A stretch of DNA of 61,432 nucleotides from Planctomycetaceae bacterium (GTDB lineage Bacteria; Planctomycetota; Planctomycetia; Planctomycetales; Planctomycetaceae): positions 1 to 61,432 of the forward strand of contig WFTL01000041.1 of assembly GCA_015485495.1 (NCBI GenBank). The letters run 5' to 3'. Shown here one piece after another: positions 9,717-13,001 of this stretch; within the stretch, counting starts at the first letter, position 1, and the number at the start of each line of letters is the position of its first letter. The position numbers were made by a program, and so were the translations under genes. The notes beneath the pieces were generated by a model. The model searched no databases. It saw nothing but the letters and a program-made list of their open reading frames with translations, and had not been told where the DNA came from.

Positions 9717-11087
<1,371 letters not shown>

Positions 11088-11153: not shown

Positions 11154-11858
11154 ATGTCCGAACATTCGGTCGACAGACTGCAGAATCCCGAGCTGCCCGC
11201 ACCGGCTTCGCCGGTGCGGGCGGTGTCGCTGGCGTTCTGGCTGTGTCTGTTCACGGCCGGCCTGATTTATGCGGCGGTGGCGCTGGCACCACGGCTGTCC
11301 GAATGGACGGCCGTCCGTCACGATTACATCCGCCGGGCCCACCGGCTGCGGGCTCTGGAAGAAGAAATCGACTACCTCGAACGCGTCCGGAAGGCCCTGC
11401 AGACGGATCCGGAATTCGTCCGCCGCCTGGCCCGCGCAGCCGCTGACCGCGATCCCGACGATGCGGATGTCATCCCGGTCAGCGGCACTCTGGTGTTCGG
11501 CAGCGAGTACGAACTTCTCGAAAGACTGCCCGATCTGGATCCGCCGTTCGGAGCGGCCGTGATTCACCGCCTGGCGGTCGATTCGTCTCTGCGAACCGGC
11601 CTTCTCATCGGGACTGCCGTTCTGGTCCTGTTCGCCTTCACGGTGCTCAACGGCGACGGCGGCTGGTTCGTACGCATGGTGGTGCACCTGGCGGTCGTGT
11701 GTGTCCGTCTGCCGATTCGTCGGTACTTTCGGGTTCCCGAAACGGAAGCCGGCGGGCACCTGTCGCAGCAGACGGCCGAATCCGGCAGGACCGCCCGCGG
11801 GAAGACAAATTCCGAATCAGGGCGCCTGCAGGCGATCGATGAGGAACTCATCGATTGA
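11154..11858 (+). CDS. FtsB/DivIC-like septum formation initiator family protein with an extra membrane helix
   Basis: A 234-residue membrane protein. A short cytoplasmic N-terminus leads to a first membrane helix (24-44). A coiled coil (59-90) reads LRALEEEIDYLERVRKALQTD then PEFVRRLARAA, the pattern of FtsB/DivIC proteins, which bridge divisome parts. Unlike FtsB (about 100 residues, one helix) it continues to a second membrane helix (about 148-166) and a basic, polar tail. Its place directly after eno supports the family call. Planctomycetes generally lack FtsZ, so its role is open. Start codons at 11154 (ATG), 11214 and 11223 (GTG) are possible because a strong hairpin covers codons 14-23. 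The 3' end overlaps the convergent esterase gene by 42 bases. Confidence 0.7.
   Translation: MSEHSVDRLQNPELPAPASPVRAVSLAFWLCLFTAGLIYAAVALAPRLSEWTAVRHDYIRRAHRLRALEEEIDYLERVRKALQTDPEFVRRLARAAADRDPDDADVIPVSGTLVFGSEYELLERLPDLDPPFGAAVIHRLAVDSSLRTGLLIGTAVLVLFAFTVLNGDGGWFVRMVVHLAVVCVRLPIRRYFRVPETEAGGHLSQQTAESGRTARGKTNSESGRLQAIDEELID
11195..11221. repeat. 27-base perfect inverted repeat inside the start of the FtsB-like gene
   Basis: Arms GCCCGCACCGGC (11195-11206) and GCCGGTGCGGGC (11210-11221) pair perfectly over 12 bases around a TTC loop. It lies 107 bases after the enolase stop codon and 41 bases into the FtsB-like frame. It could be an enolase terminator/attenuator or a translational block. 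Confidence 0.85.
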
Positions 11859-12734
11859 CGTGTACCGGTCGGATTGCGATGTACCCGGAATGATCAGGTG
11901 GCATTCGATTCCCAGATCCTGGGCGCGTTCCTGCACCTTGATTCCGAACAGTCCGTGGTGGATGGCATGCCCCGCGTTACGGGCCGGCAGTGTCATATCG
12001 GCCGGATAGGTCATCAGCAGAGGTGGATCGTCGGCCGTCATGTGGCAGATGGGCGAAAATTCCCGGTACCGTTCGGCATGGCGGTCGTAGTGTTCGAGTG
12101 CGTCTTTCATATTCGGCTCGCCGACCGCACACCAGATCATGCGGTGCTGCAGAACAGCCGGCCCCAGCCACGGCTCAATCATCTTCGGATCGATGGCCAT
12201 CTGAGCCGATGCGACGGCCGCCGCGCAGACGCGTGTCGATTCCCGCTGCACGGGATCGGCCGCATCCGGGTCGGCCAGGTCGTCGTGAAACAGCAGCCAG
12301 GCCGATGTGCAGCCGCCGGCGCTGCCACCGGTCAGAGCGATCCGGTCTGTGCGAATGTTCCAGTCGGCCGCACGAAAACGCAGGTACTGCACCGCACGGG
12401 CCGCGTCGTGTACCGGAGCCGGCAGAGGACAGGCCGGCGTGTGCCGATAGTTGATGGACGCCACGCTGATGCCATGGTTCAGAAACCGGGACACCTGTGT
12501 GGCAGCCGACCGTTTGTCGCCCCGCGTCCAGCCTCCCCCGTGAATCCACACCAGCAGCGGCCGGGGCCCCGCTTCATCCGCGATCCACAGATCCAGCCGG
12601 CATTCGGGTGCATCGGCATAGGCCACATCCGCATGCGTCGGCACGGGAGCGTCTGTCGCTCCGGCTGAAGGAGTCCGGATCGGGACGACCGCAAAAAGGA
12701 CCACGCAGATCAGCAGAACGCGGCGGGTGCACAT
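11817..12734 (-). CDS. exported alpha/beta-hydrolase (HSL/carboxylesterase type)
   Basis: A 305-residue esterase or lipase. A signal peptide (MCTRRVLLICVVLFAVV, then Ala-rich) precedes the fold. The oxyanion-hole motif LLVWIHGGGWTRGDKR and the nucleophile elbow RIALTGGSAGGCTSAW mark the hormone-sensitive-lipase/BD-FAE branch. A catalytic Asp and a C-terminal His (GHAIHHGLFG) are in the expected order. The start at 12734 was chosen because it begins the signal peptide; upstream in-frame codons add an Arg/His/Pro-rich stretch. It probably acts in the periplasm on esterified sugars or acetylated polysaccharide (inference). Confidence 0.8.
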   Translation of the reverse strand: MCTRRVLLICVVLFAVVPIRTPSAGATDAPVPTHADVAYADAPECRLDLWIADEAGPRPLLVWIHGGGWTRGDKRSAATQVSRFLNHGISVASINYRHTPACPLPAPVHDAARAVQYLRFRAADWNIRTDRIALTGGSAGGCTSAWLLFHDDLADPDAADPVQRESTRVCAAAVASAQMAIDPKMIEPWLGPAVLQHRMIWCAVGEPNMKDALEHYDRHAERYREFSPICHMTADDPPLLMTYPADMTLPARNAGHAIHHGLFGIKVQERAQDLGIECHLIIPGTSQSDRYTSIDEFLIDRLQAP

Positions 12735-13001
12735 CACGGGAATCTCCGGAAAACGGCTGCATGGCCCGAAACACCTCTGGACGATCACCGGGTGCCGGCG
12801 GCAGGAACGACGAGTGACCATAACCTGGACTCCACCGTGTGCAAACACATCGTCCCCGTCTCTTTTGCTGGGTCACCTGCCAGAATCCTTTGCACCTTTT
12901 CGGTGGCACGCATTTCTTCTGCCGGCGCCTGTCTGGTTGTCTGATTTCGGTTATCTGATGGCGAGTCGGAAATCCGGGACCACGTACCGACCTGAACCCG
13001 G

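Follow-up and report, generated by a model that had tools for sequence, protein, structure and literature searches.

A probable FtsB descendant with two membrane helices encoded behind eno in a planctomycete without a detectable FtsZ

A two-helix membrane protein gene downstream of enolase

The gene described here lies on the forward strand of the window (the whole 61,432-nt stretch of Planctomycetaceae DNA that was analyzed), directly downstream of the eno reading frame and separated from it by a gap of 66 bp (Table 1). The list of open reading frames gives it an ATG start and a product of 234 residues, referred to below as the window protein; the genome measures 4.67 Mb and is 98% complete. 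The reading frame is a real, coding gene: relative to a same-genus relative, the second codon position differs least and the third most (0.43, 0.31, and 0.68 for the three positions), and a family search recovers the protein from 56 of the 61 genomes of its taxonomic family (50 of the 53 of good quality). Its nearest named relative found, from a Fuerstiella MAG, is 55% identical at the protein level. No promoter-like site was found, and the three terminator-like sites detected fall within one standard deviation of shuffled sequences. The last 42 bp of the gene (11817–11858) are shared with the 3′ end of an esterase reading frame that runs toward it on the reverse strand (11817–12848; named from Pfam).

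Table 1. Features of the eno-linked gene, in window coordinates
Feature	Position	Strand	Basis
eno (enolase), gene directly upstream	9759..11087	+	TIGR01060, 668 bits, above cut-off; ORF
Probable FtsB-derived protein, two membrane helices, 234 aa	11154..11858	+	Family search; DivIC in members; hhalign
First membrane helix, residues 25–46	11226..11291	+	Kyte-Doolittle maximum 2.18; W29 invariant in A1
Coiled coil, residues 47–84	11292..11405	+	AlphaFold2 helix 19–84; DivIC match 35–95
DPEF...LAR...IPV segment, residues 85–109, at the position of the FtsQ-docking helix-loop-strand of FtsB	11406..11480	+	Alignment with E. coli FtsB; column counts
Second membrane helix, residues 147–166	11592..11651	+	Kyte-Doolittle maximum 2.06; F162 invariant in A1
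Helix and basic tail with R190-Y191 motif, residues 170–191, predicted cytoplasmic	11661..11726	+	AlphaFold2 helix; R190 in at least 90% of rows; R-[YF] in 26/29

The architecture is shared across an alignment and profile of 29 family members (A1), from which one fetched locus (L030) was omitted for its missing start codon. The Kyte-Doolittle hydropathy of the first helix reaches at least 1.6 in 28 members and that of the second in 25, with the remaining four at 1.35 to 1.5. Besides the two invariant positions, W29 and F162, at least 90% of the members agree at S25, F28, P46, L65, A81, F88, and R190. The tails are mostly basic, and 26 of the 29 carry the R-[YF] motif. The AlphaFold2 model (mean pLDDT 78, rising to roughly 90 or higher in helix 1 and the coil) places the second membrane helix at residues 144–166 and predicts a further helix in the tail, the two membrane helices being joined by the coiled coil. 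A second helix and basic tail had been proposed in an earlier, sequence-only reading of this locus, and both are borne out by hydropathy, by the tail motif, and by the predicted structure.

An N-terminal membrane helix leading into a coiled coil is thus present by hydropathy and in the model, as it is in FtsB. The chain does not stop at one membrane pass, because of the second helix, and FtsB is described as a bitopic, single-pass protein (PMC6134095). We therefore speak of an FtsB-derived variant rather than of FtsB.

Relationship to the FtsB/DivIC family

Scored alone, the window protein reaches 18.6 bits against the Pfam family DivIC (PF04977), below the cut-off of 28.9, and NCBIfam yields no match to it. 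Its relatives, in contrast, match the family widely: DivIC is found in 24 of the 29 aligned members (best E-value 3.9e-9), no other family is found in more than eight, and two of the two-helix relatives exceed the cut-off (L033 with 33.6 bits and L057 with 51.3 bits). When A1 is aligned by hhalign with a set of single-helix FtsBs (ten rows, nine from planctomycetes and one from E. coli), the two profiles match over 90 columns with a probability of 98.2% and an E-value of 4e-14. A second profile, A6, built from 16 planctomycete rows with no E. coli row, finds FtsB first in the PDB, where the six best sequences are all FtsB (E-values 1.1e-8 to 8.2e-6) and designed coils come next. The corresponding profile search of the PDB with A1 alone returns coils and unrelated chains and no FtsB, and querying the PDB with the single sequences of L057 and L033 likewise finds no FtsB.

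On the strength of these profile comparisons, the window protein is in all probability derived from FtsB. The resemblance to FtsB/DivIC noticed in the sequence-only reading hence holds as a statement of ancestry, and the profile search bears it out for the members and the profiles, but not for the window protein taken singly.

One other family deserves mention. The window protein scores 20.7 bits against the EccD transmembrane domain (PF19053; cut-off 30) over residues 126–184, with an E-value slightly better than that for DivIC. We rejected this identity, as the match is below cut-off, covers the region of the second helix only, and is shared by 1 of the 29 members.

Distribution and eno linkage across the Planctomycetota

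Comparison of gene positions with enolase in the same 61 genomes places the gene on the same strand and 56 to 1627 bp behind eno in 39 of the 56 family genomes that carry it. Among the 17 unlinked copies, 12 lie on a contig other than that of eno, so that broken assembly may explain part of the unlinked share; 4 are distant from eno though still on its contig and strand, and 1 is on the opposite strand. In some complete family genomes the link is truly gone.

Outside the family, A1 matches a further 15 genomes among the 246 examined from the phylum (28 once the family is counted), and some of the 15 have a plain single-helix FtsB behind eno. Profile A6 matches 155 of the 246, including 142 outside the family: FtsB has not been lost in Planctomycetota. 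We checked the best-scoring 79 of these 142 non-family loci, 48 of which have the gene downstream of eno and in the same orientation; contig ends cut some of the other 31. Linkage to eno is thus found in the family and in the wider phylum. The earlier expectation that eno–ftsB synteny exists elsewhere is correct for these planctomycete loci but not for E. coli K-12, where ftsB is not adjacent to eno.

Two oddities among these records concern the assemblies. In G010, the pair of eno and an FtsB-like gene is present twice (C201 and C89), and the assembly may be mixed. Records L091 and L095, both MAGs under the title Candidatus Kuenenia stuttgartiensis, encode an enolase 77.5–79.4% identical to that of the window and a protein of the Planctomycetaceae type; their titles look wrong.

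A second helix after the coil is present in 15 of the 79 non-family loci by a strict cut and in 17 by a looser one, in families f33, f44, f47, f58, f71, f75, and f76. The two-helix form is accordingly neither restricted to the window's family nor universal, and the suggestion that the second helix is peculiar to this lineage has to be given up. On an enolase tree, for which 72 of 112 loci had enough enolase, five changes of helix state are needed; 1 or 2 of them are forced by well-supported branches, and the deep forks are weak.

The protein is also encoded in G359, by approximately the 20th reading frame of the chromosome, at about 24.5–25.2 kb and away from eno. The gene order around ddl and murC in this genome agrees with the locus tags of P. 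limnophila (PMC12283558), the species we infer for G359, and the protein is very likely present in this genetically tractable organism, where it could consequently be tested directly.

In other families of the Planctomycetia, the position behind eno is often taken by a short two-helix protein that lacks the coil. Among 43 eno-downstream loci examined, 10 match a profile of this short protein (A5, of which 8 are rows) and 7 match A1 at E < 0.01, two of the latter (f88) lying outside the ten; all of these matches are behind eno. The hhalign comparison of A1 with A5 gives 94%, over 28 columns that comprise helix 1 only. Judged from helix 1 and gene position, the short proteins are probably kin to the A1 family. 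At L111, L115, L126, L127, L128, L130, L140, L141, and L145, eno and the short protein come before a further small membrane protein, which also has a soluble domain; one such protein weakly matches the Rv0361 C-terminal family.

FtsZ, FtsQ, and a possible role in wall synthesis

The absence of FtsZ presumed for this lineage is confirmed for the window genome, in which PF00091 finds no match, the same search being positive in 13 of 14 control genomes. Across the phylum, TIGR00065 exceeds its cut-off in none of the 246 genomes and matches weakly in nine (G100, G171, G201, G070, G155, G138, G212, G264, and G154), which may represent divergent FtsZ or contamination. A strict tie between the second helix and the loss of FtsZ was considered and rejected, given a two-helix family with weak FtsZ-like matches (f76) and many FtsZ-less families with a single helix. 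We likewise rejected a strict tie to MurG: it is matched in each of the 37 family genomes in the class set, and full-length MurG occurs without the long form in genomes of f92, f94, f95, f96, and f97 (with at most 21 candidates scored per genome).

FtsQ is the partner to which FtsB would be expected to dock. The Pfam family PF03799 proved too insensitive a probe, with matches in 1 of the 61 family genomes and just 5 of the 14 controls, and we therefore used as query an FtsQ-like protein found in a sister genome behind a reading frame that we read as ddl-like. This protein matches 58 of the 61 family genomes, including that of the window. By sequence, its PDB matches are weak: FtsQ accounts for four of the eight PDB sequences at E ≤ 1, with E-values of 0.06–0.23. 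Among seven members the FtsQ-type POTRA is matched by four and the FtsQ C-terminal family by three. Its AlphaFold2 model (pLDDT 84) has FtsQ as all nine best Foldseek matches (E-values 4.7e-9 to 2.5e-4), with Z scores of 10.4–11.3 for six FtsQ entries versus 7.5 for unrelated POTRA proteins. The window genome thus appears to encode an FtsQ with the predicted fold of the solved FtsQ structures.

In FtsB, residues R72–E82 and F84 matter for FtsQ binding (PMC6134095). We examined the corresponding columns in an alignment (A3) of 23 two-helix rows and 8 planctomycete single-helix rows. Arginine occupies the R72 position in 17 of the two-helix rows and all single-helix rows, an acidic residue (E or D) occupies that of E82 in 16 and again in all eight, and phenylalanine is found at F84 in 2 and in none, respectively. 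The window protein has R94, A104, and V106 at these positions. Because the R72 and E82 columns are mostly kept and F84 rarely, and because the window protein has no acidic residue here, the alignment favors a docking site that has been kept but has drifted, and is weaker in the window's lineage than elsewhere.

We consider it reasonably likely that the window protein is a two-pass, FtsQ-docking descendant of FtsB that still assists in making cell wall where the cell buds or divides. Its ancestry, two-helix architecture, inherited eno linkage, and co-occurrence with a protein of FtsQ fold in a genome without FtsZ are the computed part of this explanation. The N terminus would be cytoplasmic, with helix 1 and the coil paired to an FtsL-like protein, and the DP-F-AR-(PGE) segment would bind periplasmic FtsQ in the manner of FtsQLB. 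A second membrane crossing, through helix 2, would leave the basic R-Y tail in the cytoplasm, and the protein as a whole may act as a scaffold or switch for cell-wall synthesis at the site of budding or division. As a putative role for helix 2 and the tail, the latter might offer a second contact in the cytoplasm, one not made by ordinary FtsB. A bolder and rather doubtful extension is that the tail is an FtsZ-independent input to the FtsQ–FtsB switch, with a cytoplasmic binder taking the place of FtsZ and FtsA in setting the site and timing of the wall-synthesis complex.

The protein could instead be an FtsB descendant that has left division altogether: with FtsZ gone, it would have turned to a role in the envelope, as a step toward the short two-helix proteins found behind eno in other Planctomycetia families. 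The frequency of those proteins downstream of eno and their helix 1 similarity to A1 are consistent with such a course, as is the reported non-essentiality of ftsQ in P. limnophila (PMC10632474). We nevertheless think it improbable, given that the coil and the DPxF/AR segment are conserved in the window's own family. The retention of FtsQ in nearly all family genomes and the partly conserved FtsQ-docking salt bridge point to a kept FtsQ–FtsB function rather than to the different division or envelope role suggested in the sequence-only reading.

A membrane coiled-coil protein unrelated to FtsB, with a DivIC likeness of the kind usual among coiled coils, would account for the sub-threshold score of the window protein, as DivIC gives many weak coil matches in any genome, 28 of them here at E ≤ 10. 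It would also fit the structural comparison: a Foldseek search of the PDB with the window model gives 54 matches at E ≤ 10 and none at 0.001, all to unrelated helical proteins, although such a search is uninformative for a long helix. We regard this reading as very unlikely, since the window protein is the best of those 28 matches, no family other than DivIC recurs to any comparable extent among the members, A6 ranks FtsB above all designed coils, and the eno linkage ties the window protein to clear FtsBs.

FtsL and FtsB have the same helix-coil plan, and a single-helix relative (L066) weakly matches ftsL_broad (E 0.0087), but that the window protein is an FtsL-type partner instead of an FtsB-type subunit is the least credible reading, since L066 matches DivIC at 4.1e-11, the PDB matches are FtsB, and the DP...R...PGE segment aligns with the FtsQ-binding end of FtsB. 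The FtsL family is absent among the Pfam and NCBIfam matches of the window protein and among the 25 families listed of the 30 matched by the 29 members.

Returning to the reading as a retained, FtsQ-docking FtsB descendant, the original observation at this locus is confirmed and its interpretation partly supported: ancestry, eno link, absence of FtsZ, and the remodeling by a second helix and tail stand, whereas the lineage specificity of that helix does not. What is new is that planctomycetes without FtsZ retain FtsB, which in this family has gained a tail and crosses the membrane a second time. For division in the absence of FtsZ, such a kept FtsB, often linked to eno and accompanied by FtsQ, is a candidate component of the machinery that builds wall where the bud forms; the probable P. 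limnophila copy makes direct genetic testing possible.

Published surveys differ from this result. An ortholog-group survey lists ftsB as lost in planctomycetes (PMC10632474), and an EggNOG-mapper analysis reports no ftsB in P. limnophila and its loss in Chlamydiota and the surveyed Planctomycetota groups (PMC12283558); ortholog groups can miss divergent sequence, which would explain the difference. In the open-license literature, the scope of our search, we found no description of FtsB in planctomycetes or of a two-helix FtsB. A precedent is in a related phylum, in which FtsB is likewise kept without FtsZ: ftsB is reported in all chlamydial genomes surveyed, and the available text of PMC10591338, by whose description we compare, mentions no second helix. 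With FtsB of E. coli (PF04977), the window protein shares the membrane helix, the coiled coil, and an R...PGE-like segment at the FtsQ-docking position, and it differs in having a further membrane helix and a basic tail with the R-Y motif, in being about twice as long, and in belonging to a genome without FtsZ. DivIC of Gram-positives belongs to the same Pfam family as the relatives of the window protein and differs from it in being single-pass.
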